Assembly: GCA_003864455.1 (NCBI GenBank)
Contig: BGZN01000008.1
Coordinates: 1-45,489, forward strand
From: Candidatus Termititenax aidoneus
Lineage (GTDB): Bacteria > Margulisbacteria > Termititenacia > Termititenacales > Termititenacaceae
Length of the DNA: 45,489 nt
Direction: 5' to 3'
Part shown: piece by piece, positions 13,866-36,674 of the stretch
Numbering within the stretch: position 1 is the first letter of the stretch
Layout: every line of letters starts with the position of its first letter
Program-made: the position numbers and the translations under genes
The notes under the pieces: model-generated
The model's database searches: none
Told to the model about the DNA's origin: nothing
The model's input: only the letters and a program-made list of their open reading frames with translations

Positions 13866-13925
13866 CGTCGCGCTTCGTGCTGGTTTAAGTTCGGGTAACG
13901 GAGAATTGAGAAAGGTGTATTATAT

Positions 13926-15434: not shown

Positions 15435-15435
15435 A

Positions 15436-16725: not shown

Positions 16726-16730
16726 AATAG

Positions 16731-16793
16731 CGGTCATCGAGCATAGTCGAGATAGATGACCGTCATGGACACTTCGACTTCGCTCAGTGTCCG
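16731..16793. repeat. Dispersed palindromic intergenic repeat (copy 2)
   Basis: cggtcatcga...gatgaccg and ggacact-tcgacttcgctc-agtgtcc (perfect 7-bp stem); related to 12614-12689. Confidence 0.7.
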
Positions 16794-16806
16794 TAAGGAG
16801 TATTTT

Positions 16807-18928: not shown

Positions 18929-19738
18929 ATGGATAATATATTATCTATTAAGGAATCCCTGGTGGAGCGCGTCAAACAACGCCGCAAGGAACGGAATTTG
19001 TCCCAGCAGACATTGGCGGATCGTTCACTAGTAAGTTTCGGTTCGGTTAAGCGTTTTGAAAGAAGCGGGGAAATTTCTCTAAGCGCGCTTTTGCGCATCG
19101 CCCTGTTGCTGGGTTGTGAAAATGATTTTACCGGTTTGTTCCAGGAAAATTTTGCGTTAAGCGATGCTCCACAATCATCTCCTCCGCCCGCTGCCGATTT
19201 GGTATTCAAGCGGTTTTCCGTTTTTCAAGATGAAAAAGTCCGTAAAATTTGGCACGATAATGAATGGTGGTTTTGCCTTTCGGATATTGTAGAAACGCTG
19301 ATCAACTCCAAACGACAAAAACATTATTTGCTGGACATACGCCGCCGCGATCACAGTCTGGCGCGGCTTTGGCCGGACTTGACCAAATTGCTGCCGCTGG
19401 ACACGCCGCGCGGCAAGCATGAATTGCTCTGCATCAACACGCTGGGTTTTTTCCGTCTAGTGCAGTCGATGCCCAATAAGCAGGTGGAGTCCTGGCGGCT
19501 CTGGCTGGCGGAGACGGCCTATGAGCGGCTGTGTTTTATCGAAGACCCGCTGCGGGCGGTGCAATTGGCCAAAGACCTTTACAAGGCCAAAGGTTACTCC
19601 GACAGATGGATCGCGCAGAAGCTCAGCGGCGCTATGCTGCGCGAAGAATTAACCGCTTCGGAAAAAGAAAAAGCGGATAAAGACTATCTGCTTTTCATGG
19701 CCGAGTTGAGCAAAAATATTCAACCGATCTGGCAGTAA
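18929..19738 (+). CDS. XRE-type HTH fused to BRO-N-like domain
   Basis: HTH VKQRRKERNLSQQTLADRSLVSFGSVKRFERSGEISLSALLRIA; BRO-like KIWHDNEWWFCLSDIVETL... Confidence 0.75.
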   Translation: MDNILSIKESLVERVKQRRKERNLSQQTLADRSLVSFGSVKRFERSGEISLSALLRIALLLGCENDFTGLFQENFALSDAPQSSPPPAADLVFKRFSVFQDEKVRKIWHDNEWWFCLSDIVETLINSKRQKHYLLDIRRRDHSLARLWPDLTKLLPLDTPRGKHELLCINTLGFFRLVQSMPNKQVESWRLWLAETAYERLCFIEDPLRAVQLAKDLYKAKGYSDRWIAQKLSGAMLREELTASEKEKADKDYLLFMAELSKNIQPIWQ

Positions 19739-19868: not shown

Positions 19869-20531
19869 ATGGCTGAATATACAGGCATAGGAAGAGGACA
19901 AAGTCTTAAAGCTAGCCATATGGAAGCCGCGTTGGATTCTAAGGTCAGCAAAGAGGACGATGAAACTATCTTCGGGCTAAAGACTTTTACCACTTCGCCA
20001 ATAGTGACAACTGGAAACCCGACAGCGACCGCTAATACAGCGATCGCCACGGAAGCGTATCTTTATAACGCATTTAAGGATAAGATTAATAAATACAATG
20101 TGCTTTATAAGACTGGCAACCAGGATAATATTAGCGGAAAGAAAACTTTCGAAAAAGAAGTCTTACTGGGAACGCCGGGTAAAAATACAGCAGTCGGTAA
20201 CAACGAGGCTAATAAAAATGCCGTAGCCACAGAAGCGCAAGTATTTAAAGAAGTATCTGAAAAAACGACTCCAATAATGGTTGAAATTGAGGAGAGCATG
20301 GAGGAGCTTAATCGTGCTCTTAACTTCAAGGCCGATGCCGACGATGTAGTTTATCGGATTGGCAACTTGGAATATCCGAATGGTATTCCCCAAGGTATTA
20401 ACGGAGTCAAGACTTTTGCCATCACGCCGAAAATCTCGGAATCTAAAACAATGCCAAGCGATAATACCGGAGACAAAATAGCGGCTACCGAAGCGCAAGC
20501 TTACAAAGCGGCTCTCTGGCAGCCAACATAA
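19869..20531 (+). CDS. Tail-fibre-like repeat protein A
   Basis: Three degenerate G-KTF...(A/V)(A)TEAxxY repeats; paralog of the next ORF; ends YKAALWQPT. Confidence 0.75.
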   Translation: MAEYTGIGRGQSLKASHMEAALDSKVSKEDDETIFGLKTFTTSPIVTTGNPTATANTAIATEAYLYNAFKDKINKYNVLYKTGNQDNISGKKTFEKEVLLGTPGKNTAVGNNEANKNAVATEAQVFKEVSEKTTPIMVEIEESMEELNRALNFKADADDVVYRIGNLEYPNGIPQGINGVKTFAITPKISESKTMPSDNTGDKIAATEAQAYKAALWQPT

Positions 20532-20550
20532 TTTTAAGGGAGGGGTAAAT

Positions 20551-21186
20551 ATGGCGGAAAAATACAGTGGAATAGTAAAAAATAATAATATTAACGCGCA
20601 GGACGTAATAGACGCACTGGATAGCAAAGTTGACGTAACTGGAAACGTAACTATAAATGGGGTAAAAACTTTCGCTATAGCGCCGGTAGTGCCGTCCAAA
20701 AATACACCGCTAACCAGCGCTGGCAGCACTACGGCGATCGCCACCGAAGGGCAGGTTAATGCAACGGCCGCGCTTCAGGCTGATGCTAGTACTGTGGTTA
20801 CTCTGGACGGCGAGGAACCAATATCTGGACAAAAAACTTTTCTCACCCCGCCAGTAGTGCCGTCCAAAGATAATGTGATTGGTTTTGCTACTGGCACGAC
20901 TGTCATAGCCACGGAAGCTCAGGTGTATAACACGGTTGCTGACGCGGTTGAGGATATGGAGACTAAGCTTTCTGGAAAGGTTTCTTTATTGAGTGAAGGG
21001 ATTTCTGGTAAAGCTGATTCTAGTAATGTGGTCGATCGGTCCACCGCTCAAATAATCAACGGGGTAAAAACTTTTGCAAGTTCTCCAGAGATACCGGCTA
21101 ACGCCGCCATGCCAGTTGCTACGGGCGCTACGGCTAATAATATAGCTACAGAGGCGCAAGTTTATAAGGCCAGCCTCTGGCAGTAG
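20551..21186 (+). CDS. Tail-fibre-like repeat protein B
   Basis: Repeats INGVKTFAIAPVVPSK...AIATEGQV / ISGQKTFLTPPVVPSK...VIATEAQV / INGVKTFASSPEIPAN...NIATEAQV; ends YKASLWQ. Confidence 0.75.
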   Translation: MAEKYSGIVKNNNINAQDVIDALDSKVDVTGNVTINGVKTFAIAPVVPSKNTPLTSAGSTTAIATEGQVNATAALQADASTVVTLDGEEPISGQKTFLTPPVVPSKDNVIGFATGTTVIATEAQVYNTVADAVEDMETKLSGKVSLLSEGISGKADSSNVVDRSTAQIINGVKTFASSPEIPANAAMPVATGATANNIATEAQVYKASLWQ

Positions 21187-21197
21187 GGGAAAATACT

Positions 21198-22337
21198 ATG
21201 ACGGATCGTGGTCGCGTAAAAGAAAGATTGCTGCCTGCGGCATATCGGCTGAATACTTATGAGGTTTTTATGACTTGGGATTGTAATTTGCGCTGCGTTT
21301 ATTGTTATGAATGTGTGGCGGGCAAAGACACAGCCGAGCGGCGTGAAGAAAAAAAAGGCGCGATGACTTCAGAAAAGATCACTGAGGTGGTTAATTTTAT
21401 TGCAGAGACTCACGATAAAAATGCCAAGGAACTGCGAATTATTTTCTGGGGTGGGGAACCCTTTTTGGCGTTTGAACAGATCAAGGAAATGATCGCCAAG
21501 ATCGAGCAGGCGCAGGCCGACGGCCGGATCGAAAAAGAGGTCTCTTATACCACCACCTCAAATTTAACAGTGCTTACTTTAGAACAAATGCAATATTTGC
21601 AGACCAAACGTTTTTCTATATTGGTTTCGTTTGATGGGTTGGAAAAGACCACGGATCAAAATCGCGGCAAGGGCACCTTTGCCAAGGTGATCAAAAATAT
21701 GGCCTTGCTGCATGGTTTGAGGATTCCATTCTCAATAAGGATGACAGTTTCTCTGGAGCAAATCGACAGTCTTGGTAGGAATTTAGAATTTGTTAATGAT
21801 CTGGGGCATAAATTTTGGTGGAGTCTAGACAGCACCAAGAAAACTCTCGCGCAAGATGATATAGAAAAGATTTTAAATATTCTTTTATGGTTTCATCAAA
21901 GCTATCCAAATAACTTTGCGGAAACATTAAGCCGTCATCTGCGCAAAAGAGACAAGAATTTTTGCATAGATCCTTACAGGCAAATAACTATTGATCCTGC
22001 CGGCGATCTGCGGGTTTGTTCCAGGGTGGACTATGTTATTGGCAATATACGTGAAGGTGTGACCAAATATTCAGAAATCAGAGACTGGCCGTTTTATTCT
22101 GGCAAGCCGCTTAAAATATGCGCCGATTGTTTGGTTTATGATAAATGCAAAGGTGGTTGTCTTGGAGAGCATTTTGAAAAAAACAAGAATTTGAGCGCGG
22201 ATTATAAATTGAACACTGCGCAATGCCAAGAAATATTGATGATGCATTTGCTGAATGAAAATTTAATTTTAAAACAGCAATACGCTTCATTAAAAAAAGA
22301 GGAGGAAAAAGAACTATGCCATATTCCAACCATTTAG
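21198..22337 (+). CDS. Radical SAM/SPASM protein (enzyme 1)
   Basis: CNLRCVYC (CX3CX2C), FWGGEP; C-terminal Cys cluster CSRVDY...CADCLVYDKCKGGC...C. Confidence 0.92.
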   Translation: MTDRGRVKERLLPAAYRLNTYEVFMTWDCNLRCVYCYECVAGKDTAERREEKKGAMTSEKITEVVNFIAETHDKNAKELRIIFWGGEPFLAFEQIKEMIAKIEQAQADGRIEKEVSYTTTSNLTVLTLEQMQYLQTKRFSILVSFDGLEKTTDQNRGKGTFAKVIKNMALLHGLRIPFSIRMTVSLEQIDSLGRNLEFVNDLGHKFWWSLDSTKKTLAQDDIEKILNILLWFHQSYPNNFAETLSRHLRKRDKNFCIDPYRQITIDPAGDLRVCSRVDYVIGNIREGVTKYSEIRDWPFYSGKPLKICADCLVYDKCKGGCLGEHFEKNKNLSADYKLNTAQCQEILMMHLLNENLILKQQYASLKKEEEKELCHIPTI

Positions 22338-23104
22338 ATCATAATTCCTGTGAAAATTGTACGAATACATGCGACAATAATGATCGATGTGATAATGTAG
22401 ATTATTGCAAGGTTTGTGAAGAAGCCAGTCATCACGATTACTATTGTTATGGCGACTCTTGTTTTCAGTGCAGTCATTATTATTCATGCAATCAAACTGA
22501 GGAGTATACAGATACATATAGCTATGCTGATAACTATAGTTACAACAATCACGCGAACTATTCTATTGCTTATCCGCCCAGTTTCGAATTGGAGGGTATA
22601 TCAAAGACTTCCACGAATGCTTGGACAAATTTATCTTCGGCCATCCCGGATATAAAAAAGCTGCGCGACGAGATCAAGCGTATTACTACTAAATATGGCA
22701 CACAAAAAGGTATTGCCGCTAATGGGAGCTTGACCAGCGGCAAAGGACCGATACAATGGGAAACGGCTACTACTGAAAATGCCGAAACAGAATTCGGATA
22801 CGGCAAAATGGCCAGGGCGGCGCAAATAAATGAAACAATCAATAATGTGGAGACACTATGGCAGGCTATAAAAGGCGGAAGCAGCGGATTACCGTCCTTA
22901 AAAAATAAAGGTGATCCAAGGAGCAAAGCGGATTACAAGACTATTATTGAAAAAGCTAGCGAGTTGGCGAAAATAGACCAAACGCCAGCCACTGGGTATC
23001 TAAACCATCTGAATGAAAATAAATATCCTAATTATCATAGCAGCACAAAAAACAATATACCGGCGAGCGATACTAAACCCAATAGACCAACCTGGAAGAA
23101 ATAA
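22316..23104 (+). CDS. Cys/Tyr-rich putative modification substrate
   Basis: 10 Cys in residues 12-58, then a Tyr-rich segment YTDTYSYADNYSYNNHANYSIAY; Shine-Dalgarno gaggagg; overlaps the end of enzyme 1. Confidence 0.7.
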   Translation: MPYSNHLDHNSCENCTNTCDNNDRCDNVDYCKVCEEASHHDYYCYGDSCFQCSHYYSCNQTEEYTDTYSYADNYSYNNHANYSIAYPPSFELEGISKTSTNAWTNLSSAIPDIKKLRDEIKRITTKYGTQKGIAANGSLTSGKGPIQWETATTENAETEFGYGKMARAAQINETINNVETLWQAIKGGSSGLPSLKNKGDPRSKADYKTIIEKASELAKIDQTPATGYLNHLNENKYPNYHSSTKNNIPASDTKPNRPTWKK

Positions 23105-23127
23105 ATCATCTTATAAGGAGTTTTACT

Positions 23128-23385
23128 GTGTCTACGCCGTGGAATGATTTGCAGTCCTGCACTCTATGTGGCAAGCCATTAAGAGATATTTTGGTGTTGA
23201 CTAAAGTGTCTATGGATCTACATAGCCGCTATTACCGAGAGGATGGTGTTTTTGAAAACATGAATGGTTTAAAGAAAGCAACTTCTGAATATTTGTGCGA
23301 AGAATGTTTCAAGGTTTTTGTGGATAAGCTGGAAGCCTTTTCAACAGAACGGACTGTTTTGAAAAATAAAAACGGTGACATTTGA
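23128..23385 (+). CDS. Small protein with two CxxC motifs (zinc-ribbon-like)
   Basis: SCTLCGKPL ... LCEECFKVF; 85 aa. Confidence 0.65.
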   Translation: MSTPWNDLQSCTLCGKPLRDILVLTKVSMDLHSRYYREDGVFENMNGLKKATSEYLCEECFKVFVDKLEAFSTERTVLKNKNGDI

Positions 23386-23388
23386 GTT

Positions 23389-24696
23389 ATGTTTGAAAAT
23401 GTGCAGGAGATAATTCTTAAAGTAACCCGTGATTGTAATTTGCGTTGTTCTTACTGTTACGTGCGGGATAAGGATCGTTTTAGAGGAGAACGCATGACGT
23501 TTGCCGTTTTCCAGAAGATAATTGAGCGTTATTTACAGGATCAAGCGCGGAATATCGGAGCAGCGGTCAAACAGCTTTTATTAGTGTTCCACGGCGGTGA
23601 ACCAACTTTACTGGGCGCTAAAGAACTGCGGCGTTTTATGAATTATGCCAGAAGTAAAATTCCTTATATCCGGTTTGGCATACAGACTAATCTTACGAAT
23701 ATTTCGCCGGAATTGGCGGCGCTCTTTAAAAAATACAGTATTGTGCCGGGCATCAGTGTGGATGGCTGGCATTCACGTTCCAATAGCTTGCGGATGAACG
23801 GTAAGAAAAGTCCGGTTTTAGAAAATGTAAGAAAACTAAAAAAATATCATATTGACTGCGGGCCATTATTGGTAGTCAATAAAGCCAATATTAAGAAAAC
23901 TTGGACTAATATTATTAAACTGATCAGAAATTTTGCCATACCAGGGATCAAAGCCAACTATGTGGAAAATATTTATTCTCCGGATTTTGTATATCCGGAA
24001 TGCAGGGCTGAAGAGTTATTCAAAGAATTATTCCTTCCGACAATAAAGCATTTGCAAAAAAAACAACAATTGGTGGAAAGAAATGCAGAAGGAGTTCTTT
24101 CTAATTTTTTTAATGCGCTTATTTTTCAAAACGAAAACTCTCCAGAGCGGGACTGCCATAAAGATAATTGTCAAATAAAATTTTGTACTGGAGGCAATAA
24201 GCTGGCCGAAGTTGACGCTGAGGGAGTGGTTCTTTCCTGCGGCCGTTGGGATGATGTGCATGAACTTTGCCGGATCGGTTCTGTCGAGGCTCTGGACTTC
24301 TGGGGAATTAGCTCTTACAGCAAAGTGCTGGCCTTGCAATGCCGAAAGGCTGCGGCTGTGCGGCAGAAACATTGTGATAGCTGTCCGGCCGGTGAAATTT
24401 GCAGTTACGGCTGCCTGGCTTTTAGTTACGCAAAATATGGCGATATTCGTATCCGAGCGGACTCGGTCTGCGCTTATTACAAGCAAGTTTGGCAATATTT
24501 GCTGGCTAATGCCTCAGTTGTTTTAAAAAGTTATGCCGCAGTCCGGAATTGGGAAATTGCTGAGCGGCGGAGCAGAAATTTTCAAGTGTTTTTTCCAAAA
24601 AATGCGCCAAGATTAAATGAGGAGAGTATTAACAAAGTCTCGGGGTGGTCTATCGGTCAAGCAGGCGCCAAAACTTGCTTGCAAGTGCGGTATTGA
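23389..24696 (+). CDS. Radical SAM/SPASM protein (enzyme 2)
   Basis: TRDCNLRCSYCYVRD; FHGGEPTL; SPASM-like CTGGNKLAEVDAEGVVLSCGRWDD...CDSCPAGEICSYGCLAF. Confidence 0.92.
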   Translation: MFENVQEIILKVTRDCNLRCSYCYVRDKDRFRGERMTFAVFQKIIERYLQDQARNIGAAVKQLLLVFHGGEPTLLGAKELRRFMNYARSKIPYIRFGIQTNLTNISPELAALFKKYSIVPGISVDGWHSRSNSLRMNGKKSPVLENVRKLKKYHIDCGPLLVVNKANIKKTWTNIIKLIRNFAIPGIKANYVENIYSPDFVYPECRAEELFKELFLPTIKHLQKKQQLVERNAEGVLSNFFNALIFQNENSPERDCHKDNCQIKFCTGGNKLAEVDAEGVVLSCGRWDDVHELCRIGSVEALDFWGISSYSKVLALQCRKAAAVRQKHCDSCPAGEICSYGCLAFSYAKYGDIRIRADSVCAYYKQVWQYLLANASVVLKSYAAVRNWEIAERRSRNFQVFFPKNAPRLNEESINKVSGWSIGQAGAKTCLQVRY

Positions 24697-24697
24697 T

Positions 24698-26077
24698 ATG
24701 CTGGAAAATCTGCAGCACCTTATCTTAACTGTTACCCGCGATTGTAATTTAAATTGTCAATATTGTTTTGAGCAGGACAAACAGTTGTATGCGCAAGAGA
24801 AAATGTCTTTAGCCGTGTTTAAGCGGTTTATGGAAAAACTACTGATCGACCGCAAAAAATATCGACAGACAAATCCTGTGGAAATTTGTTTTCATGGCGG
24901 AGAGCCGACCTTGGGCGGAATTCCGCTTTTGCAAACATTTATCGATGAAGCTCAGCAGCAGTTGGGCGCGGATAAAGTTATTTGGGCAATGCAAACCAAC
25001 GGCACGCTTTTGAATGAAGAATGGCAGCATTTTGCGAAAAAAAATAAGGTTAAAATCAGTGTTAGTTTAGACGGATATAATTACGGCCAAAATCGGCTGC
25101 GTTTTAAGAAAAATGCGTTTAAAAATTATTTTCGGCGCATGCTGGCGGTTAAACCTGTGGGTGCGCTGGCTTTATTGACTAAAAATAATTTGTCAAATAT
25201 GGTGTTTCATATTTGGTTTATGTATTTTAAGTTTAAGATCGGCGTGCGCGTTAATCCGGCGGAATTTGTTGATGGTCCGGCAGTTAATCCTCAAGAAATT
25301 AGCGGCCAGCAATTGGCCCGGAAATTTTATTTGCCTTTGTTGCGTTGGAGCGCTTTATTCCCTTGTCTGGCTGAGCACCTGCTGCGGGGTTTTTTACAAA
25401 GTTTTTTCTTGGAAACTATATATACAAAAATGACGCAGAATAATGAGACCGACTTGGCCTGCCGCTTGTGCAGCGCAAAATTTTGTTCGGCGGGGAATGG
25501 TATTATTAACTTATTGCCAAATGGCGCTTTGTGGGCTTGTCAGCGTTCTCAAGGCTTGGAAGATTATCGAATGGGATCTGTTTTTGAAAGTGCCATTGAT
25601 CCTTTTGGCCTAAAACATTTTAATAAATTATATGCTTTAGCGCTGCCTCAAGCGCGGACCATACGCGAGCTTAGATGTGATGTTTGTTTTGCTGCGGATA
25701 TCTGTAATTATGGCTGCAAGGCCTTTGGTTTATTAAAAACGCAGGGGCGGGCTACTATTCGGAAGGAGTTGGTCTGTGAAGCGGCACAAATTGTTCGTGA
25801 ATATTTTAGCAGAAATATTTATGATATGCTGTTTGTTTACGCGCGGCTTTCTGATTTCTCGATCAGAGCAGCTAGATCCCGGGTCAAAATATATTTGCCG
25901 CAGAAACTCAACTATGATGCGGTCCGTTATGAATTAAAAAATATAAATGACCATAATATTTCCATAGCTCAAGACAAGGAAGACAATGTTTATATTGCTT
26001 TCTCCAGGAAAAATTTAAGCTTAGGGAATAGATTGATCTTGAGCGCGCAAAATTTTATCCAGAAAGGAAAAAAATGA
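24698..26077 (+). CDS. Radical SAM/SPASM protein (enzyme 3), paralog of enzyme 2
   Basis: TRDCNLNCQYCFEQD; FHGGEPTL; CRLCSAKFCSAGNGI...CDVCFAADICNYGCKAFG. ATG at 24698, just after the enzyme 2 stop. Confidence 0.92.
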   Translation: MLENLQHLILTVTRDCNLNCQYCFEQDKQLYAQEKMSLAVFKRFMEKLLIDRKKYRQTNPVEICFHGGEPTLGGIPLLQTFIDEAQQQLGADKVIWAMQTNGTLLNEEWQHFAKKNKVKISVSLDGYNYGQNRLRFKKNAFKNYFRRMLAVKPVGALALLTKNNLSNMVFHIWFMYFKFKIGVRVNPAEFVDGPAVNPQEISGQQLARKFYLPLLRWSALFPCLAEHLLRGFLQSFFLETIYTKMTQNNETDLACRLCSAKFCSAGNGIINLLPNGALWACQRSQGLEDYRMGSVFESAIDPFGLKHFNKLYALALPQARTIRELRCDVCFAADICNYGCKAFGLLKTQGRATIRKELVCEAAQIVREYFSRNIYDMLFVYARLSDFSIRAARSRVKIYLPQKLNYDAVRYELKNINDHNISIAQDKEDNVYIAFSRKNLSLGNRLILSAQNFIQKGKK

Positions 26078-27081
26078 ACATAATTTTGACAACCAGATGC
26101 AATAAAAATTGTTCTTTTTGTTTTGCCAATAAAGTCATGCGGGAAAAGCCCGCGGAAGATATGACGCTGGCTAATTTTAGCGGGCTAGTAGAGTTGGCTT
26201 GTCGAGACAATCCTAGGCCGCAGGGTTTGAAGCTGCTGGGCGGCGAGCCGACCATGCATCCACAGTTTGTAGAAATATTAGACTTTTTAACGGCTAGGCA
26301 GATTCAGGTGTCGCTGATTTCTAATTTGCTGTACGAGGATGAAAAAGTGCGCATGCGGATTTATCAGGCAGCGCGAGACGGCGTGATTGTGGGCGGGTTG
26401 GCTAATGCGGCTGAATTGGGTTCGAGTAATAAAATGCAGATATTTAAAGATAATTTTAATGCCTTGCGGGAGGCTTTGGGTCGGCGTGATTTTCAGCGAG
26501 ATCTGGCGGCGGGGATAACGCTTTCCAGGCATAAATCAAGCGCAGAAGAGGTTGCTTATGTGGAATATTTAAGCCAAAACTTGGAAATATCTGCTTTGCG
26601 CATATCGCTGGATTTTTTAGGGGACAATGTTAGAGACACGTTTTTTATTAATAATAAAGAATATGGGCAAAAATTTTTGGCTGTTATTCATAAATGTTTG
26701 GATTTGCGCATACCAGCTTCCGGCGATTGCAAAATGTATCCCTGTATGTTTGAGCCAAAGAATTTTCGGAAAGATATTCAGGGATTTATTCAGAGGATTC
26801 GCACAGCTTGCCTTGCCGGTGCGGCGCCTTTTGATGTTCTCCCGGACATGTCTTATATTCATTGTTATCCGGCGCGCAAGTTATCCGGTCAGAATATTCT
26901 AAAGTTTTCGCATTTGTCTGAGGCGCTGGGTGAAATAACTTTCCTAAAAAAGTCCTTACAAAGTCTTGGCAGAGAAGATTTGCCGCCAGAGTGTCGAGTT
27001 TGCGATTATTATAAAACAAATAGATGCGATTCTTTGTGCTTGGGTTGTCGAGAGCTGGCGGTAGGATTTTTGGATAACTAA
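26074..27081 (+). CDS. Radical SAM protein (enzyme 4)
   Basis: MNIILTTRCNKNCSFCFANK; LLGGEPTMHPQF; C-terminal CRVCDYYKTNRCDSLCLGC. Confidence 0.9.
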   Translation: MNIILTTRCNKNCSFCFANKVMREKPAEDMTLANFSGLVELACRDNPRPQGLKLLGGEPTMHPQFVEILDFLTARQIQVSLISNLLYEDEKVRMRIYQAARDGVIVGGLANAAELGSSNKMQIFKDNFNALREALGRRDFQRDLAAGITLSRHKSSAEEVAYVEYLSQNLEISALRISLDFLGDNVRDTFFINNKEYGQKFLAVIHKCLDLRIPASGDCKMYPCMFEPKNFRKDIQGFIQRIRTACLAGAAPFDVLPDMSYIHCYPARKLSGQNILKFSHLSEALGEITFLKKSLQSLGREDLPPECRVCDYYKTNRCDSLCLGCRELAVGFLDN

Positions 27082-27083
27082 AT

Positions 27084-29294
27084 ATGGCAAAAAAGATAAA
27101 ACTGCAATTTAGCATCGCCGGCGGATTAAGTATTCATAAATCTACGCTAGCTTTTATCTTGGCCAGGGAACAACATTCAGAATGGTTTTACCCCGAAATG
27201 GAGGTAGCGTCTGTGTATGATTGTTTTCCGGGATTTATTTGGAATGGCGGCAGGATATATTCTCAATCTGTAATGTCAGCCGAGCAAATGATCCAAAGGG
27301 TCAACTTTTTTAATAATCGGAATATCGGAGTTAATTTTACTTTTACTAATTGCGCCTTAACTGCCAAGCATTTGTGCGACCCTTTAGGCAATTGGGCTTT
27401 GGAGAAGTTTGTTAAACCGATAAACGCGATCGTGATCAATAGTCCAATCCTGGAAGAATATATTCGTCAAAATTATCCCCAGTGTAAAATGATTTCGTCC
27501 GTTACAAAGGTGATCAGGGATATAGATCGCTTATTGGCAGACACGCTCAAATATGACGCAGTGGTTGTGGCTCCGGAGTTTAATCATGATTGGCAGGCCT
27601 TGAGTAAATTGCCAGTGGATAAGATAGTTATATTAGTTAATGAAGGCTGCGCGCCTTACTGTTCGGACAAACTCAAACATTATAAAATGTATTCGGAAGC
27701 TATTTTGGGGCTAGCGACAAAAGAATCCATCAAGTATTTTTGTCCAGATGGACGCAAGGGAAACAAAACCATCTTATCCAGAAAACAACTTTTAGTCTTG
27801 GCTGAAAAATTAAAGATTAAACATTTTAAACTAAATGGCCGCGATGCTACTACTCTGGAAACGCTGCTCGGATATTATAAAGAATATTTTGTGCTACCGG
27901 AATTTCAAGCCAAATTTGAACGGTTTATGCGTGAAAACAACAATTTGAAATTCTGGAATAAGCAAATAAGCGCAATTCAATGGGATAAAAACATCGTGGA
28001 TAGGCTGGCCAAGGTTTATCAAGAAGTGTTGTTCGATACGGTGAAAAAGATTTGTCAGAAAAATATTACACCGCTGGCGGTATATATTCACAGCCCATTT
28101 TGTCCCTCGCAGTGCAAGTATTGTGCCTATCGAGGCCGAGTGCCGTTAAAGGGCGAGCTGGAAAAATATTATAATGAATATCTTCCAGCGCAAATCAATA
28201 ATTATAGAGAGATTTTGCAAGCCGCGGAGGTCAGCTCTTGGTTTTTTGGCGGCGGGACACCATCTTTGATGACGCCGGAAATGCTACGCCATATTTTAAG
28301 CCTGTTGCCCGGCCTTAAAGAGCGCGGCGAAAAGATTTTTGAGATCCACCCGGCCAATTTTAATATAGAACTTTTAGATATTCTGCAGGAATATAATTTT
28401 CATAATGTGATTGTTGGTGTCCAGTCCTTTGCTGAGGAGACGTTAAGGAAAGCGAAGCGTATTCCTGCCGGCAGGGAACAGATAAAGAGCATAATTCAAG
28501 AAATTCAAAAACGGGGCATGGCGGCCTGGGTGGATTTAGTAGGCTATGTCAACGATGATCCTGGAGAAATAGCCGTCCTGGGACAGGATATTTACACTGC
28601 GCTGGAGCTGGAGCCGGACGAGATCAGCATTTGTATTAATTATTTTCTGAGGGAAAAATATTTGCAAACGACTTTAGAGTTGCTTACTGTTGTATTGCAG
28701 ACGGTTGGATTTGGCTGGCAATGGGAAGACTTTATCGCCAAACCGGCGGACATCCGAAAACATTTAGAGAATTTTAAGGTATTGAGATTATATAACAAAA
28801 GTAAGCCGCTGGTTTTAAAGCAGCGGAATTTTCTTAATGCACTGGCGACACACACGGAGCATTTTGTCAAACAATCCTTTTTAGGCATAGGCAGCTATCA
28901 AAATCAAACACATGGCACGATTTCTTGCCTGGTGACGGAGGATTATAAATATTTTTTTACAGAAGCAAATAAGGATTGGCAGCCGCGTTATTTTATTACA
29001 CACACCGCGGATTTTTTGGCGGAGGCTCAACGGCTGCTTTCAGATATGAGAGATACCGCCGCAAGTATGAAAAGAACGCTCCAGATCAAGCAGGTTTGCT
29101 TAGAACGACGATACTACAATCCGACCGGCACGCTTGGTCTGGGCGAGGATATTTCTTTTTTGTCGGCAACTTTAGAGAGAGACTTTTCCAGCAGCCTTGC
29201 GGAAAGAATAAAATGTGAGTCTCTTTTGCAGAAATACCAGCTGCCGCCGGACAAGCCGTTTATCGATTTATCAAAAATTGGGGTACCGAAATGA
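27084..29294 (+). CDS. Fusion: peptidase-U32-like N-domain + HemN-like radical SAM (enzyme 5)
   Basis: N-domain PEFNHDWQAL...VILVNEGCAPYCSDKLKHY (U32-like Cys motif); C-half VYIHSPFCPSQCKYCAYRG, FFGGGTPSLM. Confidence 0.82.
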   Translation: MAKKIKLQFSIAGGLSIHKSTLAFILAREQHSEWFYPEMEVASVYDCFPGFIWNGGRIYSQSVMSAEQMIQRVNFFNNRNIGVNFTFTNCALTAKHLCDPLGNWALEKFVKPINAIVINSPILEEYIRQNYPQCKMISSVTKVIRDIDRLLADTLKYDAVVVAPEFNHDWQALSKLPVDKIVILVNEGCAPYCSDKLKHYKMYSEAILGLATKESIKYFCPDGRKGNKTILSRKQLLVLAEKLKIKHFKLNGRDATTLETLLGYYKEYFVLPEFQAKFERFMRENNNLKFWNKQISAIQWDKNIVDRLAKVYQEVLFDTVKKICQKNITPLAVYIHSPFCPSQCKYCAYRGRVPLKGELEKYYNEYLPAQINNYREILQAAEVSSWFFGGGTPSLMTPEMLRHILSLLPGLKERGEKIFEIHPANFNIELLDILQEYNFHNVIVGVQSFAEETLRKAKRIPAGREQIKSIIQEIQKRGMAAWVDLVGYVNDDPGEIAVLGQDIYTALELEPDEISICINYFLREKYLQTTLELLTVVLQTVGFGWQWEDFIAKPADIRKHLENFKVLRLYNKSKPLVLKQRNFLNALATHTEHFVKQSFLGIGSYQNQTHGTISCLVTEDYKYFFTEANKDWQPRYFITHTADFLAEAQRLLSDMRDTAASMKRTLQIKQVCLERRYYNPTGTLGLGEDISFLSATLERDFSSSLAERIKCESLLQKYQLPPDKPFIDLSKIGVPK

Positions 29295-30409
29295 GAAAGG
29301 TAATACCCTTGTTTAAAGTTTTTATGAGTAAAGATGTGCTTAAGCCGCTTGAGCGGGTTTTGTTTAGCGGTTTTATAGGCCAGGGCAAAAAAGTTGAACA
29401 ATTTGAAAAAGTATTGAAATACAAATTAAACTCCCCGTATATTTTGACAATGAATTCCGGAACATCCTGTCTACATATTGCCTATCAAATGTTAACTGTT
29501 AAGGAAGAGACTAACGAGGCGATAGTGTCGCCGCTAACCTGCGCCGCGACCTTAACTCCTTTGTTGGCCAATAATATTCAGCCAGTCTGGGCAGATGTTG
29601 ATGGACGGACTGGCAATATTAATGTTCTGGATGTTGAAAGAAAGATCACGCCGCGAACTAAAATGATTGTTGCTGTGCATTGGGGCGGCAATCCTTGCGA
29701 GTTGTCAAAATTGGCGCAGCTCAGCAGAAAGTATCATATTCCGCTTATTCAAGATGCCGCGCATGCTCTGGGCGCTGAGTATCACGGCAAGTCTATTGCT
29801 GCTTATAGTGATTTTACGATGTTTTCCTTACAGGCTATAAAACAGGTTACTACGGGCGATGGCGGAATATTGGTTTGTAGAAGCGCTCAGTACTATAAAA
29901 GAGCCAAATTATTAAGATGGTACGGAATAGATAGAGAAAAGAATTGTAGAAACAGTGATCTGCGCTGTGCCATTGATATTAAAGAAGCCGGACATAAATT
30001 TCATATGAATGATATTAATGCCATGCTTGGTTTGGAAAACATCAAATTTTTGGATTGGCTGTTAGCGCGGCATAGAGATAATGCGGAGTATTATGATCGT
30101 AGATTTAAGGGAAAAATAGACCATGTGGTTGCAGCCAAAAATACTAAACCGACCTACTGGCTTTACACAATTTTCGTGAAGAATGCCGAAGCTCTGCGCC
30201 GCAAATTGCTGCAAAGAGGCATTCAAGTTTCTAAAGTCCATGCGCGGAACGATCAACACACGGTATTTAAGAAATATAATCGTTGTCCTTTGCCCGGGGT
30301 TGATTGGTTTGATCTGCATCATCTTTGTATCCCTTGTCATTATGCTCTGACTGAACAAGAGCGGGAGTATGTGTCGGACAGTGTTTTGGAGCTGGCAAAA
30401 TGGGGATGA
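29291..30409 (+). CDS. DegT/DnrJ/EryC1/StrS-type PLP-dependent aminotransferase
   Basis: MNSGTSCLHIAYQ; IQDAAHALGAEYHGK; FSLQAIKQVTTGDGGILV. Confidence 0.92.
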   Translation: MRKVIPLFKVFMSKDVLKPLERVLFSGFIGQGKKVEQFEKVLKYKLNSPYILTMNSGTSCLHIAYQMLTVKEETNEAIVSPLTCAATLTPLLANNIQPVWADVDGRTGNINVLDVERKITPRTKMIVAVHWGGNPCELSKLAQLSRKYHIPLIQDAAHALGAEYHGKSIAAYSDFTMFSLQAIKQVTTGDGGILVCRSAQYYKRAKLLRWYGIDREKNCRNSDLRCAIDIKEAGHKFHMNDINAMLGLENIKFLDWLLARHRDNAEYYDRRFKGKIDHVVAAKNTKPTYWLYTIFVKNAEALRRKLLQRGIQVSKVHARNDQHTVFKKYNRCPLPGVDWFDLHHLCIPCHYALTEQEREYVSDSVLELAKWG

Positions 30410-32457
30410 ATAATTTATTAAATATTAAATTAGACAAAAATCAGAGTTTTCTGGAATTAGAATTTCCAGAAAGCATGTTTTGTGAGGAAATAGTATTACA
30501 AGCTAAGAAATTGATAGAGAAGAAGTATGCTGGAGCGATTATTAGTTATGAAGTCGATCAAAATAACTATGACCGCGCGGCGATAAAAATAACAAAATCG
30601 GACAATAAGCTTGATATTAAAGCGGTTGCGATAGATTTATTTAGCACGATAAATAACTATCCGAATTATTATCCCTATAAAGATAAATCCGCGCCGGCTA
30701 ATGTAGACGCCAAGCAGCCGCTGCTTACTTGTATTATTGTTGTGGCATTTAATGAATTATTTGTTTTAAATCAAACCATTCCATCAATTTTAGCAAATAC
30801 TAAAGATATTCCTTTTGAAATAATAATTGTCGGTAATGACAGCGTCAGTAAGGCGGATTTGTTTAAGCATTTGCCGGTAAAGTATATTGACGCATCCAGC
30901 GCCCCTTTTCATGTAAGCAGAGCTTATAATTTAGGCATTAAATCAGCTCAGGGACAGTATATTGCTATATTGCATGATGACGCGGTTATTGATGATGTGC
31001 TTTGGGCAGAAAAATGCATTAAGGTTATTGATTCAGAACAATTTATTCTTTTGTCTGCAACTATTCAACAGAGAGACGTGTTAGGCAGTGTTACTGTCGG
31101 GGGCACTCCGCTCCTAATGTTTAGGGCTGCTCTTACGCAGAAGTATGGATTGTTTGATGAAAATATATATATTGGTTTTGAAGAAAATGAATACAGCGCG
31201 AGAATGTTGGCTAATAATATTTCTGTAAGGTATACGCCTTGTCGGGTTTTCCACATGAAAAGTTCAAGTACTGCTATTTTATTTAATCATGATTCTGAAT
31301 TATTTAAAATATTATTTAGCCTAAATATTATGCCAAAGAAATGGATTGGGTTATTCTGGCAATTTTTTCGTAAAAAAAACTTCTCCGAGTTGTTGGATGT
31401 TGCAGATGATCTTTATCTGGCTTATTGTGTGAGAAAATATCAGCCAAAACGTTTTCATGATTTTATGCAAATGCAAAAATATAAATCGGTTTTTTTAAAT
31501 AGAAGTCGAGAATACTTTTTGTTTGATGAATGGCCGCTTCCAAATAATTTTATTAATTCTAAGCATGAATTATTGATAATAAAAACCCTGGAACATTTAA
31601 AAAGCAGCTCCATGCAATCCATTATAGATTTTATTTTTGCGCCGCCGCGCAGATTAGAATTTGATTTTGAATTGTCCAGCAAGTGTACGGCTAGATGCGG
31701 TTTTTGCCCGCGAATTCATCTACAGAGAGATAATGACTTTATGCCAACGCAATGTGTGTGCAAGGTATTAAGTCAAATACCGGACATTATTAATGACTAT
31801 GATATTATCTCTATAGGCTTTGCCGGGTTGGGCGAGCCTCTATTAAACAAGCAAGGTTTTTTTGCGATCTTGGATTATGTAAGAACTATGCCTTATCGGG
31901 CTAAATTGAAAACAACAATAGTTACTAACAACACTTTGATTGATGCTGATTTTATTAGTAATCCATTGTTGCGCTATCTGAATTCTATGGTGATTAGCGC
32001 TGCTGGTTATAGTTATGCTGACTATGTCAGACAATATAATCAGCCTTGGCCCAGAACATTAGCCAACATTCTGGAGTTACGCAAGCGTTGGCCGCGTATG
32101 AGTATCAAGGTTGCCGCGGTAAATTATTTGGATCAAGCCGCGCCTCCATTAAAAGAAAATGAAATATTTCTTTCCTGCCAGGAGAACCAAATTTGGTATG
32201 AAAATCCTCCATTGCATGGCCGCGGCGGATATTTGTATAAGGCCAATATCGCTGAACGGCGGACTTGCCAGATTTATAGTAGATTTGTTTTTATTTCTAG
32301 TGATGGCAACTATCTTTCTTGCTGTAATGATCTAACCCAGGAAAACATTTTAGGTAAAGTAGCGGTTGCGCCTTTGTCTGGTGTTTTAGCTAAGAAAAAA
32401 TGTTTTGACTATAAAAATCCTTTCCCGCTTTGTAAAACCTGCGATATTAGTAATTAG
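30400..32457 (+). CDS. Fusion: GT2-like glycosyltransferase + radical SAM/SPASM (enzyme 6)
   Basis: LTCIIVVAFNELFVLNQTIPSILA..., ILHDDAVI; C-half FELSSKCTARCGFCPRIHL, GLGEPLL, CSxx...CCNDL...CKTC. Confidence 0.88.
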   Translation: MGMNNLLNIKLDKNQSFLELEFPESMFCEEIVLQAKKLIEKKYAGAIISYEVDQNNYDRAAIKITKSDNKLDIKAVAIDLFSTINNYPNYYPYKDKSAPANVDAKQPLLTCIIVVAFNELFVLNQTIPSILANTKDIPFEIIIVGNDSVSKADLFKHLPVKYIDASSAPFHVSRAYNLGIKSAQGQYIAILHDDAVIDDVLWAEKCIKVIDSEQFILLSATIQQRDVLGSVTVGGTPLLMFRAALTQKYGLFDENIYIGFEENEYSARMLANNISVRYTPCRVFHMKSSSTAILFNHDSELFKILFSLNIMPKKWIGLFWQFFRKKNFSELLDVADDLYLAYCVRKYQPKRFHDFMQMQKYKSVFLNRSREYFLFDEWPLPNNFINSKHELLIIKTLEHLKSSSMQSIIDFIFAPPRRLEFDFELSSKCTARCGFCPRIHLQRDNDFMPTQCVCKVLSQIPDIINDYDIISIGFAGLGEPLLNKQGFFAILDYVRTMPYRAKLKTTIVTNNTLIDADFISNPLLRYLNSMVISAAGYSYADYVRQYNQPWPRTLANILELRKRWPRMSIKVAAVNYLDQAAPPLKENEIFLSCQENQIWYENPPLHGRGGYLYKANIAERRTCQIYSRFVFISSDGNYLSCCNDLTQENILGKVAVAPLSGVLAKKKCFDYKNPFPLCKTCDISN

Positions 32458-32470
32458 ATTGGTGGTATAT

Positions 32471-34138
32471 ATGACGACTGAGCAGAAACTGAAATTTAGT
32501 TTGGGCGGCGGCTTGACTGATAACTATGTTATCCAGTTGTTTATTTTAGGGAGAGAAGAACATCCGGAATGGTTTTATCCGGGAATAGAAATCGAGTCAA
32601 TATTTGATAGTTTCCCGGGGTTAGTCTGGAATGGCGGCCGTTTGGTGGAAGGCTCATTGACTATGGATGATGCTATGGCCAGAGTGGAGTTTTTTAATAG
32701 CCGCAATATTGGAGTGAACTTCACTTTTACAAATTGTTTGTTGACAGAAGAACATATTGACGACCCATTATGCAATGCCGTGCTTCAGAATTTTGCCAAT
32801 CCTTTAAATGGCGTGGTCGTCTATGATCCGCGTTTGGAAGCGCATATCCGGACGGCTTGTCCGCAATACAAGATAATTTCTTCTGTCTCAAAATGTATCT
32901 ATGACCGGAGAGAAAGACTGATTGCAGACACGGAAAAATATGATTTGGTTGTAATTCCACCGGAATTTAATCGCGATTTAGCATTTTTGCGCCTATTCCC
33001 GCCGGAAAAAGTGGAGTTATTGGTAAATGAAGGCTGCCCGCCTTATTGTAAGGAAAGGATGCAGCACTATATTGTTACTTCTCAGATGGTCTTAGGATTA
33101 AGAGCTATAGAGGATAATCCTTATAACCCCTGTAAAAAAGTTATGCGCAAGCCGCCGGCGGGAAAGATGGTTTTAACAATTACTGAATTATTCGAAATAT
33201 TAGCGGCGACAGGCATCAGTCATATGAAGTTTAATAATCGCGGCAATCCTTCTGTCGAGCGCTCCCTTCAAGAAATAATCAAATATTTTGTGCTGCCGCG
33301 GCATAGCCTGGCCTTCAATTCTTTTATGCAGGATAAAATCCGGCAATTAAGGGGAGATAAAATTAATGCCGCAGATTATGCTGTTTTTAAAATATCAGTC
33401 ATAGTGCCGGTTTATAATACAGAAAAATATTTAGCGGCTTGTTTGGATAGTGTTCTAGCACAGACCCATCAGAATTTGGAAATTATTATTGTAGATGATA
33501 ATAGTCCAGACAATGCCCAAGAGATTTATAACAAATACGCGAGATACGATAAGAGAATAAAAATAATAAAGCATCTGCACAATAAAAAACTCTCTGCCTC
33601 CCGTAACAGCGGATTGCGACAGGCCAGCGGGGATTATGTGCATTTTTTAGACAGCGATGATTATATTATGGATGCGGATTACTACAAGATAATGCTGAAA
33701 TACGCTGTTGATTATAATGCTGAGCTTGTGCGCAGTGGTTTTTATAATGAGCGGACAACGCACCGCTTGGATGGTGTTTGGCTGCTTGGTTCTCTGCGGG
33801 ATTTATCCCGTAAATTGACTTTGGTGGAAGAAGCCCCGTATTGTTGGTGTTTTTTGTTTAAGAGAGAATTTTTGCAAAAATACAATCTTGAGTTTGATAT
33901 CTCTTTGCTGTGCGGAGGTGAAGATTTAATTTTCTCTTTTGAGGCAGCGTATTATGCTAATCAAATTGTTTTGGTACCGAATGTGAAGGTTTTTTATCGA
34001 AAAGATGGCGCTTTCCGCAAATCAAATAATGAACAAAGAATATATAGTGAAAACCTGGCTCATAGAAAAATAAGTGAATTTGCTGAGCGGCATAAATTTC
34101 AGGATTTATTCCGGCGAATATTTGAAACAAACCGGTGA
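32471..34138 (+). CDS. Fusion: peptidase-U32-like domain + GT2 glycosyltransferase
   Basis: N-domain closely resembles that of 27084-29294 (VNEGCPPYCKERMQHY); C-half ISVIVPVYNTEKYLAACLDSVLAQTHQNLEIIIVDDNSPD...FLDSDDYI. ATG at 32471 preferred over 32405. Confidence 0.85.
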   Translation: MTTEQKLKFSLGGGLTDNYVIQLFILGREEHPEWFYPGIEIESIFDSFPGLVWNGGRLVEGSLTMDDAMARVEFFNSRNIGVNFTFTNCLLTEEHIDDPLCNAVLQNFANPLNGVVVYDPRLEAHIRTACPQYKIISSVSKCIYDRRERLIADTEKYDLVVIPPEFNRDLAFLRLFPPEKVELLVNEGCPPYCKERMQHYIVTSQMVLGLRAIEDNPYNPCKKVMRKPPAGKMVLTITELFEILAATGISHMKFNNRGNPSVERSLQEIIKYFVLPRHSLAFNSFMQDKIRQLRGDKINAADYAVFKISVIVPVYNTEKYLAACLDSVLAQTHQNLEIIIVDDNSPDNAQEIYNKYARYDKRIKIIKHLHNKKLSASRNSGLRQASGDYVHFLDSDDYIMDADYYKIMLKYAVDYNAELVRSGFYNERTTHRLDGVWLLGSLRDLSRKLTLVEEAPYCWCFLFKREFLQKYNLEFDISLLCGGEDLIFSFEAAYYANQIVLVPNVKVFYRKDGAFRKSNNEQRIYSENLAHRKISEFAERHKFQDLFRRIFETNR

Positions 34139-34148
34139 AAGGAATTTT

Positions 34149-35231
34149 ATGTTCAGTAAGACGGTCGGGGTTTTTTTTAATAATAAAAAAGTGGGCAGAA
34201 TAACGGAACTTCAATCAGGACATTATGGTTTTACTTATGATCCAGAATGGCTGCTCAATGGTTTTGCGATAGATCCGCGGCATTTACCGTTGCAAAATGT
34301 TCTATTTACCGTGAGACAGATTGCTCCCAGCATGTATAGCAACTGTTCATTCAATATCTTTTTGGCTAGTTTTTTAGGCGGGTGGCAGTATGTGCTTATA
34401 GATTCTTTATTGTTAAAATATGTAGACTCTCCGCAGGAAATATCATTATTGGATAGACTGGTCGTTTTGGCTGAACATGGCTGCGGTTCTTTAACATATA
34501 AATTAGAAGAAGCATTTGATTATAAGATGGATATGCGCTGCTTAATCTTCTGGCATGAACAAATGGTGTGTAAACATAGATCGGAAGATTTGAATAAACT
34601 GTTAGCATGCTGGAGTTTACTGGATGAAAACTCTGGCGTAACGCTTAAAATGGTTTTGGTTGCACTAGGTAAGACGCAATGGCTGCTTAAGTTTAAACGC
34701 AAAGGCGATGAGATTGAGTGGTTGAATAGTCAAGCTGCTTTAAAGGCGGGGTTATGCTTGCCAGAGATCCGGCGGCTGGAAGATAGATATTTTTTGAGCA
34801 AGCGTTTTGATTGTCGAGAAGACGGCCGGAAAATATTTTTCTGCCGGGCGGATGTTTTATTGGAAGAACGCGGCTGTGATTATGCGGATATTTTAAATTT
34901 AACTAAAGATTTAACCGAGTCGAGTGAAGAAGTATTAAAAATGTTTCAACGCGCATGTTTTAATATTCTTTCCGGCTGCGATGATCATATTCATAATTTG
35001 GGTTATTTATATGATGGCGTCAATTGGACGGTATGTCCGAATTATGATTTGGCACAAGGTCCCAAACCAGGGCACGACGCGTTGTTAACTGTCAACCATT
35101 CACACAAACCAAATACAGAGGATATCTTGATTGTGGCTGAGAAAGCGGGAATTCCGGCTCGGATTGCCAAAGATGTTTTGGCGGAAGTAAGAGCAGCAGT
35201 AGATGAATGCCTTCTCTCCGGTCTGGCCTAA
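34149..35231 (+). CDS. HipA-like Ser/Thr kinase
   Basis: VGRITELQSGHYGFTYDPEWL..., FNILSGCDDHIHNLGYLYDGVNWTVCPNYDLA. Confidence 0.8.
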   Translation: MFSKTVGVFFNNKKVGRITELQSGHYGFTYDPEWLLNGFAIDPRHLPLQNVLFTVRQIAPSMYSNCSFNIFLASFLGGWQYVLIDSLLLKYVDSPQEISLLDRLVVLAEHGCGSLTYKLEEAFDYKMDMRCLIFWHEQMVCKHRSEDLNKLLACWSLLDENSGVTLKMVLVALGKTQWLLKFKRKGDEIEWLNSQAALKAGLCLPEIRRLEDRYFLSKRFDCREDGRKIFFCRADVLLEERGCDYADILNLTKDLTESSEEVLKMFQRACFNILSGCDDHIHNLGYLYDGVNWTVCPNYDLAQGPKPGHDALLTVNHSHKPNTEDILIVAEKAGIPARIAKDVLAEVRAAVDECLLSGLA

Positions 35232-35303: not shown

Positions 35304-36674
35304 TTGTCTATGTTATTGTCTGAATCGGAGACTGCCGAGCTAAAAACATCCACCTCTGAATTGAAAGAAGCTATCGTTTCTATTTGCGCTATTCTCAATA
35401 AGCATCAAGGCGGGATATTATATTTTGGCCTTAGAAATAACGGCAGAGTTATTGGACAGACTGTTTCTGAAAAGACCCTGCGGGACATTTCTAAAGCGAT
35501 TGCCGAGCATATCGAGCCTAAAATATATCCTATTGTTGAAAAAGTAATTCTGGATAATAAACAATGCGTTCGAGTAGAATTTAACGGCCAAACCATTCCT
35601 TATTTTGCGCAGGGGCGTGCTTATATCCGTGTCGGAGACGAAGACAGAAAATTATCCGCAAAAGAGTTAGAAAATATAATTTTAGAGAGGCACCGCAAAA
35701 ATATTTCGTGGGACACAGAGATTTGTAAAAAGGCCGTGCTTCAGGACATTAGCATTGAAAAGCTAAGAAAATTTGTCAAAATGGCCAAAGCAACTTATGC
35801 GTCTCAAAAAAATTCTTTGGAAAAATTAAATTTACTTGCTGGTAAAAGTTTGTTAAACACCGCATTGCTGTTTTTTGGTAAAAATCCGGCAAGATTTTTC
35901 CCCGGCGCTAAATTAAGATGCGCGGTTTTTGGCGCCCAAAATACCGCGTCCATTATTGATCGCCAGGAATATTGCGGAGATGTGCTTTATTTGATTGAAC
36001 GAGCCCAAGAGTATATTTTAAAGAATATACATGTCGGCATGAAAATAGAAAGTTTGTCTAGGGAAGACGTCCCTGAAATAAACAAAGAGGCTTTGCGGGA
36101 AGCTGTTATTAACGCTTTTTGTCATAGAGATTACCGCGAGCATGATGCAGTGAATATTGCCGTATTTAAAGATCGTGTGGAAATTAGGAGTCCGGGCGGA
36201 TTGTATGGCGGACTGACTCTTGCCCAGATAAAGGAAGAGTCTGTGTCCAAAAGACGCAATGAGTTGATTGCGGATTTATTCCATCGAATAAATTATGTAG
36301 AAAAATGGGGGCGCGGTATACCATTGATTTTAGCCAAAGAACCAACTGTTCGATTCAAGGAAGTGGCGGGCATTTTTATCGCGGTATTTCAAAGAAAATA
36401 TTATTTGGAACAAGCGGAAGCCGGCTTGGAAAAAGCAAGAAAGCGCGGTAAAAAAACTACCCTGAAAACTACCCTGAAAACTACCCTGAAAACTACCCTG
36501 AAAATTATTAGGTTAATTAAGCAAAATCCGCAAATTACCACCACGCAATTGGCTGAAATGCTGGGGTTGAGCCTTGATGGAACAAAGTGGAATCTAAAAA
36601 AATTAAAGGAGCAGGGCAAGATTCGGCGTGTTGGACCGGATAGAGGCGGTCACTGGGAAGTGTCAAATATTTAA
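35304..36674 (+). CDS. AlbA_2/Schlafen-like ATP-binding regulator with C-terminal HTH
   Basis: ESETAELKTSTSELKEAIVSICAILNKHQGGILYFGLRNNGRVIGQ; EALREAVINAFCHRDYREHDAVNIAVFKDRVEIRSPGGL; C-terminal winged HTH. Confidence 0.88.
   Translation: MSMLLSESETAELKTSTSELKEAIVSICAILNKHQGGILYFGLRNNGRVIGQTVSEKTLRDISKAIAEHIEPKIYPIVEKVILDNKQCVRVEFNGQTIPYFAQGRAYIRVGDEDRKLSAKELENIILERHRKNISWDTEICKKAVLQDISIEKLRKFVKMAKATYASQKNSLEKLNLLAGKSLLNTALLFFGKNPARFFPGAKLRCAVFGAQNTASIIDRQEYCGDVLYLIERAQEYILKNIHVGMKIESLSREDVPEINKEALREAVINAFCHRDYREHDAVNIAVFKDRVEIRSPGGLYGGLTLAQIKEESVSKRRNELIADLFHRINYVEKWGRGIPLILAKEPTVRFKEVAGIFIAVFQRKYYLEQAEAGLEKARKRGKKTTLKTTLKTTLKTTLKIIRLIKQNPQITTTQLAEMLGLSLDGTKWNLKKLKEQGKIRRVGPDRGGHWEVSNI
36455..36502 (+). 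repeat. In-frame 12-bp tandem repeat (aaaactaccctg x4, encoding KTTL)
   Basis: aaaactaccctg repeated four times between the ATPase-like and HTH parts. Confidence 0.9.

Follow-up and report, generated by a model that had tools for sequence, protein, structure and literature searches.

A conserved radical SAM gene cluster in Candidatus Termititenax aidoneus and its sister loci: a candidate maturation system for tail-fibre-like structural proteins

What does a bacterium modify with thirteen adjacent genes that carry six radical S-adenosylmethionine (SAM) domains? The question is raised by positions 19869-35231 of contig BGZN01000008.1 of Candidatus Termititenax aidoneus (Margulisbacteria; assembly GCA_003864455.1), whose 45,489 nucleotides are called the window here. 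An original prediction, made from the letters alone, had described this gene train as a candidate modification system. All 13 of its open reading frames (ORFs) are recovered on the plus strand, and the six predicted domains are matched by Pfam Radical_SAM in the ORFs at 21198, 23389, 24617, 26074, 27084 and 30400. The domain forms the HemN-like half of the 27084 ORF and the C-terminal half of the 30400 ORF; in the latter the match is below the Pfam cut-off, a CX3CX2C motif lies at residue 429 and a SPASM match falls just under its own cut-off. Our analysis supports a real, conserved and apparently undescribed protein-modification system. We put at roughly 0.5 the probability that its core resembles the maturation systems of ribosomally synthesized and post-translationally modified peptides (RiPPs), and that it cross-links and, with a variable module, glycosylates tail-fibre-like structural proteins.

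Sequence comparison indicates that the conserved unit is the first eight genes, 19869-27081, rather than all 13 as first proposed: two repeat proteins, a putative precursor, a small double-CxxC protein and radical SAM enzymes A to D (Table 1). The core genes recur in the same order at locus L041, on contig C33 of G006, a genome from a second genus within the host's Margulisbacteria family; the core enzymes share 49-65% identity between the two loci. Conservation outside the host genome, whose absence the original prediction had listed among the findings that would speak against it, is thus found in a second genus. Downstream of enzyme D the two loci differ in gene content. In the window there follow U32-HemN, DegT, glycosyltransferase family 2 (GT2)-radical SAM, U32-GT2 and HipA genes, which make up a variable part, and in L041 GT2 genes and a 999-residue GT8-GT2-SPASM/radical SAM fusion. 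Strong matches to enzyme C (95 genomes) and enzyme D (383 genomes) occur in the window genome and G006 only, the sole other match to D at E <= 1e-15 having 26% identity. Because of this synteny and the confinement of C and D to two genomes, we take the core as real, conserved and rare. In open-access papers we found no description of this system, of CXXX-repeat maturases or of tail-fibre-like radical SAM substrates.

The core enzymes point to peptide or protein maturation. Enzymes A, B and C have the CX3CX2C motif and the SPASM cysteine pattern, and the gene for A overlaps that of the precursor. Their best NCBIfam relatives are all peptide or protein maturases: PapB comes first, with 137, 109 and 118 bits for A, B and C on model NF047865 (cut-off 340 bits), and CcpM, DynA, YhhB and sulfatase maturase also appear. 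Scores on YhhB and FxsB are at most ~85 bits against cut-offs of 370-445, and the window enzymes are far below cut-off on the 3-CyFE family models YhhB, FxsB, XyeB and GrrM. Enzyme B reaches 65 bits on TIGR04115, and the nearest solved relatives of enzyme C are 5wgg and the anaerobic sulfatase maturase 4k37. We found no named close relative of enzyme D. Two other readings were considered and set aside: PADLOC pVip (antiviral viperin) matches to the radical SAM proteins are weak and generic, and the phage matches listed for the enzymes are all below 26% identity.

The putative precursor offers a pattern on which such enzymes might act. Its two orthologues, both of 262 residues, share a conserved middle of ~130 residues flanked by diverged low-complexity tails. 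In the window protein, [YHC]-x-[ND] triads occur in residues 1-92 and in the C-tail; the tails of the two orthologues hold triads such as YSN, CTN, CDN, HAN, YTN, HYN and YIN, and the two middles hold 0 and 1. Relative to composition-preserving shuffles (p values uncorrected), triads are enriched in the N-tails of L041 (14 observed, 5.5 expected, p 1.5e-4) and the window (12 and 6.8, p 0.008), and in the C-tails of L041 (5 and 1.4, p 0.001) and the window (3 and 1.1, p 0.055). The motif was spotted first in the N-tails and afterwards tested in the C-tails. The spacing is specific in L041, where the i+3 arrangement is depleted (1 observed, 5.7 expected). The [YH]-x-N triads dominate in the L041 orthologue, whose N-tail has only 3 Cys in 107 residues and does not conserve the Cys triads of the window. 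This Cys/Tyr-rich protein, earlier put forward as a putative substrate, thus has patterned triads at both ends, which suggest a specific chemistry; we take it to be the probable substrate.

In triceptides, a Trp, Phe, Tyr or His at position i is bonded enzymatically to the beta carbon at i+2, and the acceptors include Asn and Asp. Examples are Tyr-Asp (YxdB) and His/Tyr-Arg (YhhB); in ranthipeptides the enzymatic bond runs from Cys to Asp or Asn (PMC11002830). The i,i+2 match is a lead to the chemistry rather than a test of it. Like the triceptide systems of XncB, OscB, YxdB, HaaB and YhhB, the window has a SPASM radical SAM gene adjoining a precursor gene, an aromatic residue at i and an acceptor at i+2 (PMC11002830). 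Unlike them, it has a 262-residue precursor with triads at both ends, tail-fibre-like partners, and U32 and glycosyltransferase modules, in addition to the low model scores given above. Among the PapB-type ranthipeptide and quinohemoprotein maturases, PapB is the top match of A, B and C, and thioethers from Cys to Asp or Asn would suit the C-x-[ND] triads in the window tail; the enzymes nonetheless score far below the PapB cut-off, and L041 does not keep those triads in its N-tail. Enzyme A also has the maturase model of quinohemoprotein amine dehydrogenase near the top of its matches, which raises the idea of a Cys/His/Tyr-rich metal-binding or storage protein in which the radical SAM enzymes make an in-chain redox cofactor. 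We regard this as improbable, since the few cysteines of the L041 N-tail mean that metal ligation by Cys is not conserved, and the train has no oxidoreductase partner.

The same resemblance of the SPASM enzymes to RiPP maturases, together with the patterned Cys/Tyr/His segment, could instead indicate a conventional secreted RiPP, such as an antimicrobial of the sactipeptide, ranthipeptide or triceptide class, whose exceptionally long precursor would rely on unlinked genes elsewhere for cleavage and export. The original prediction had doubted this, and our searches bear out the doubt. The PqqD/RiPP recognition element (RRE) family (PF05402) is absent from all eight genomes of the family (G000-G007), although divergent RREs could escape the search, and so is the C39 leader peptidase/exporter (PF03412), other exporters being outside the search; control genomes were positive. 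These two absences lower the odds of a classical secreted RiPP. The train also lacks an exporter, immunity or protease gene, the precursor has its conserved middle domain, and sister precursors reach 440-740 residues with up to 137 Cys. Overall, we consider a secreted RiPP unlikely.

The scaffold for a larger product may lie in the first two genes. The predicted pair of repeat proteins is confirmed and now proves to be phage-tail-fibre-like, with BppL_N (PF18338) and PHROG matches, and we read the two as probable scaffolds. Gene 1 carries KTF..P / ATEAQ repeats and a Trp near its C-terminus; gene 2 has paralogues on two other contigs of the host, C24 and C13, and related genes occur in L041 and L042. 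The repeat family has relatives in seven IMG/VR viral contigs and one phage record. The window proteins share their repeat motif with phage tail-fibre and lower baseplate proteins, but here the genes are linked to radical SAM genes. A PDB sequence search with the repeat protein gave no match. A contractile injection system or tailocin was considered and rejected, as the gp25-type baseplate gene (PF04965) is absent from all eight family genomes. Tail-fibre-like N-terminal modules are also combined with different C-terminal regions: in G002 (L043:1663-4133) with an FGE-sulfatase-like domain (Pfam), no radical SAM gene having been noticed next to the G002 cases, and in G003 (L042:3596-4660) with a collar-like C-terminus without matches.

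The repeat proteins might themselves be the main substrates, modified for example at a conserved C-terminal Trp, with the Tyr/Cys-rich protein carrying metal or playing a structural part beside them. A Trp stands at or near the C-terminus of each of the ten repeat proteins aligned, and in the window, L021, L022, L041 and L042 their genes come before those of the enzymes. The triad-rich tails, however, sit in a separate protein, and the CXXX-type sister loci described below keep a maturase and a Cys-rich protein with no separate repeat protein seen beside the enzymes. These points leave the repeat proteins as unlikely principal substrates, on a par with the secreted RiPP, and we favour the 262-residue precursor.

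The variable module adds potential for oxidation and sugar transfer. The GT2, DegT and HipA_C assignments of the original prediction are upheld by Pfam. The U32-like call has no Pfam or NCBIfam support and stands at the level of fold: the model of the domain at 32471 (mean predicted local distance difference test score, pLDDT, 82) is closest in the PDB to 5d88, the U32 protein Mk0906 (E 5.6e-7, TM 0.67 by target), so that modelling supports a U32 fold. Like the U32 family (UbiU/UbiV, Mk0906), the domain has conserved Cys: set beside the four that bind a 4Fe-4S cluster in U32 proteins, three are invariant among five lineage members (alignment A1) and two in the wider set A5. Unlike that family, the window type is fused to a HemN-like radical SAM domain or GT2. 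Across 95 genomes the U32 part also matches the sister locus on the host's contig C24 and loci in G001, G003 and G005; those on C24 and in G001 and G003 are radical SAM loci, and that in G005 ends at a contig edge. U32-like genes are not confined to such surroundings: a divergent one (L041:832-1839) lies among ordinary genes ~3 kb upstream of the L041 core. In a Phycisphaerae contig (L028:7624-11809), two adjacent genes with repeated U32-like domains stand beside a pair of large proteins, related to each other, which on visual inspection resemble alkaline phosphatases.

Glycosyltransferase and radical SAM domains are fused in three architectures: GT2-radical SAM in the window, GT8-GT2-radical SAM in L041 and radical SAM-GT2 in L075, where one ORF (L075:3-1826, its N-terminus cut by the contig edge) joins a CXXX-type radical SAM enzyme to GT2. 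Sugar transfer is therefore tied to the pathway. In addition, the GT2 of the window U32-GT2 fusion shares 40-43% identity with that of a radical SAM-GT2 fusion on the host's contig C40 and with the GT2 adjoining the L041 core. HipA is the weakest member; it has no counterpart in the L041 cluster, and its membership in the system is doubtful. The DegT and GT2 genes could also be taken to mark a surface-polysaccharide locus, in which radical SAM, U32, DegT and GT2 proteins build an unusual sugar and the repeat proteins are unrelated phage remnants; a remote U32-like relative adjoins rfbA/rfbC-like genes on a Desulfobacteraceae contig (L029). Yet the conserved core consists of repeat proteins, precursor and SPASM enzymes without sugar genes, and the CxC-type sister loci L022 and L042 have a precursor and radical SAM enzymes with no glycosyltransferase noticed in the stretch read. 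A polysaccharide locus thus seems somewhat less probable still than a secreted RiPP.

By sequence, the window cluster is one of several sister systems in the family. At three CxC-type loci (the host's contigs C24 and C13, and C158 of G003), genes for a Cys-rich protein patterned as CxC[ND] and for radical SAM enzymes come after those of the repeat proteins. A CXXX type outnumbers these by far. A search of 95 genomes for relatives of the TIGR04115-like radical SAM enzyme of L024 gives seven places in the host genome (contig ends truncate some of them), five each in G001 and G003, four in G006, two in G005 and one each in G002 and G004; the remaining 88 genomes have none. The sister loci score 262-275 bits on the TIGR04115 model (cut-off 350), which at E <= 1e-60 matches only this Margulisbacteria family among 383 genomes. 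Adjoining these enzymes in the CXXX loci read (L070-L086) are 18 proteins of 429-742 residues (two cut by contig ends) with 55-137 Cys and a common N-terminal module; 1584 successive Cys pairs, ~88%, are exactly four residues apart. One example is L076:1429-3657.

Like the CXXX-repeat system of TIGR04115/TIGR04116, the CXXX-type sister loci have Cys at every fourth residue, a TIGR04115-like radical SAM enzyme and TIGR04116-like small proteins; unlike it, they are all below the curated cut-offs and encode proteins of 440-742 residues in which the N-terminal module stands apart. To that system the window cluster is only remotely related, through enzyme B. The pattern across sister loci is a Cys-rich protein and a radical SAM enzyme, with a tail-fibre-like partner in the CxC type or a conserved N-terminal module in the CXXX type. 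A helix-turn-helix (HTH) gene lies divergently upstream of 14 of the 18 CXXX genes (BLAST); among the other four, two are cut at the contig edge, L074 has an HTH-like ORF by eye and L086 has none. Such HTH/XRE-type genes are found at L070, L072, L073 and L076-L085, and also at the CxC loci L022 (10125-10493) and L042 (10762-11172). They suggest locus-by-locus switching.

Gene content, core synteny, triad enrichment, sister loci and the U32 fold, which the computations show directly, together lead us to infer the following model of substrate, cross-link chemistry, glycosylation, co-assembly and product location. Enzymes A, B and C, partnered by D and the CxxC protein, would act on the precursor (22316-23104) and place many short i,i+2 cross-links in its N- and C-terminal tails. 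Tyr and His could form C-C cyclophanes with the beta carbon of Asn or Asp, and Cys could form thioethers. The conserved middle may serve both as recognition element and as the part that joins the precursor to the two repeat scaffolds. With its U32-like, HemN-like, DegT and GT2 domains, the variable module would optionally add an oxygen-independent oxidation and an amino sugar, and the product would be a stiffened, possibly glycosylated fibre or surface protein rather than a small secreted antibiotic.

Several observations weigh against this model. The core was found in only two of the eight family genomes, four of which are <90% complete, and none of the window enzymes reaches an NCBIfam maturase cut-off. 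The structure model of the repeat protein is of low confidence (pLDDT 53), and Foldseek gave no significant match with it. The triad motif was chosen post hoc, and the uncorrected window values (p 0.008 and 0.055) are moderate. Finally, no export route was identified, C39-type exporters having been looked for and others lying outside the search.

The layout of the train largely agrees with the original prediction. The short gene spacing stands, but three ORF starts had probably been placed too far upstream: they were moved because ATG codons at the new positions fit the domain starts (for enzyme C, also the orthologue), and three overlaps become gaps of 1 bp (enzyme C), 13 bp (U32-GT2) and 10 bp (HipA). 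The cluster is indeed AT-rich, with a GC content of 0.41 against 0.51 at window positions 3001-17000 and 0.47-0.51 in other stretches of the 2.26-Mb, 93% complete host genome; this is compatible with acquisition and is no proof of it. The host probably lives in a gut. A promoter and terminator scan of the train gave no clear signal, the counts being only modestly above those of shuffles and scattered within genes. Relatives of the putative regulator upstream (Table 1) adjoin sister loci L021 and L024, with 74% identity beside the C24 locus (tblastn). Further upstream, 17574-18788 encodes an AAA_14/DUF4143 ATPase with a strong match to the PADLOC candidate defence family PDC-S01 (429 bits). Downstream, four 12-bp tandem repeats (TLKT) at 36453-36512 lie within the C-terminal part of an SLFN_AlbA_2/HATPase_c_4 protein.

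Table 1. Genes of the train and the adjacent putative regulator, in window coordinates
Feature	Coordinates	Strand	Evidence
XRE-HTH + Bro-N (antirepressor-type) putative regulator	18929..19738	+	Pfam HTH_3, Bro-N; upstream of train
Core gene 1: tail-fibre-like repeat protein	19869..20531	+	BppL_N sub-threshold; phrog_38418; family alignments
Core gene 2: tail-fibre-like repeat protein	20551..21186	+	BppL_N above Pfam cut-off
Core gene 3: radical SAM/SPASM enzyme A	21198..22337	+	Pfam Radical_SAM; CX3CX2C at residue 29; SPASM Cys pattern; 60% identity to L041:5891-6991
Core gene 4: putative precursor, 262 residues	22316..23104	+	Orthologue L041:6988-7776, 42% identity; triad statistics
Core gene 5: double-CxxC (Zn-knuckle-like) small protein	23128..23385	+	L041 orthologue, 65% identity; no family match
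Core gene 6: radical SAM/SPASM enzyme B	23389..24696	+	Radical_SAM; CX3CX2C at residue 16; SPASM Cys; 55% identity to L041
Core gene 7: radical SAM/SPASM enzyme C, corrected start	24698..26077	+	Radical_SAM; 49% identity to L041
Core gene 8: radical SAM enzyme D	26074..27081	+	Radical_SAM; 65% identity to L041; strong orthologue only in G006
U32-like domain (~residues 1-310) fused to HemN-like radical SAM	27084..29294	+	Alignment A1; Radical_SAM 334-488
DegT-family sugar aminotransferase (PseC-like)	29291..30409	+	Pfam DegT 1.8e-77; best NCBIfam model PseC, below cut-off
GT2 + radical SAM/SPASM fusion	30400..32457	+	Pfam; analogous fusions in L041, L075
U32-like domain + GT2 fusion, corrected start	32471..34138	+	Predicted structure, best PDB match 5d88; Pfam GT2
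HipA-like kinase, last gene, corrected start	34149..35231	+	Pfam HipA_C, Couple_hipA

The class of chemistry proposed here is known; the substrate type, its size, the scaffold and the combination of enzymes are matched by nothing that we found. Radical SAM/SPASM cross-linking is known mostly from short peptides or a few enzyme subunits, and here it likely concerns long patterned proteins with tail-fibre-like partners. More tentatively, and with the odds against it, the family as a whole may make a class of large (~260-740 residues) structural proteins that radical SAM enzymes cross-link and that are glycosylated in part, several of them having tail-fibre-like partners or modules. The variant loci, many in each genome, all with a maturase and often with an HTH regulator of their own, would then amount to a repertoire of surface or intercellular fibres among which the cell could switch. 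If true, such a repertoire would be a categorically new use of radical SAM chemistry. Confirmation of the proposed system would extend radical cross-linking to the hardening of structural proteins, provide a genetic handle, through U32, on oxygen-independent chemistry of protein side chains, and give the uncultured Margulisbacteria a testable surface or attachment system.

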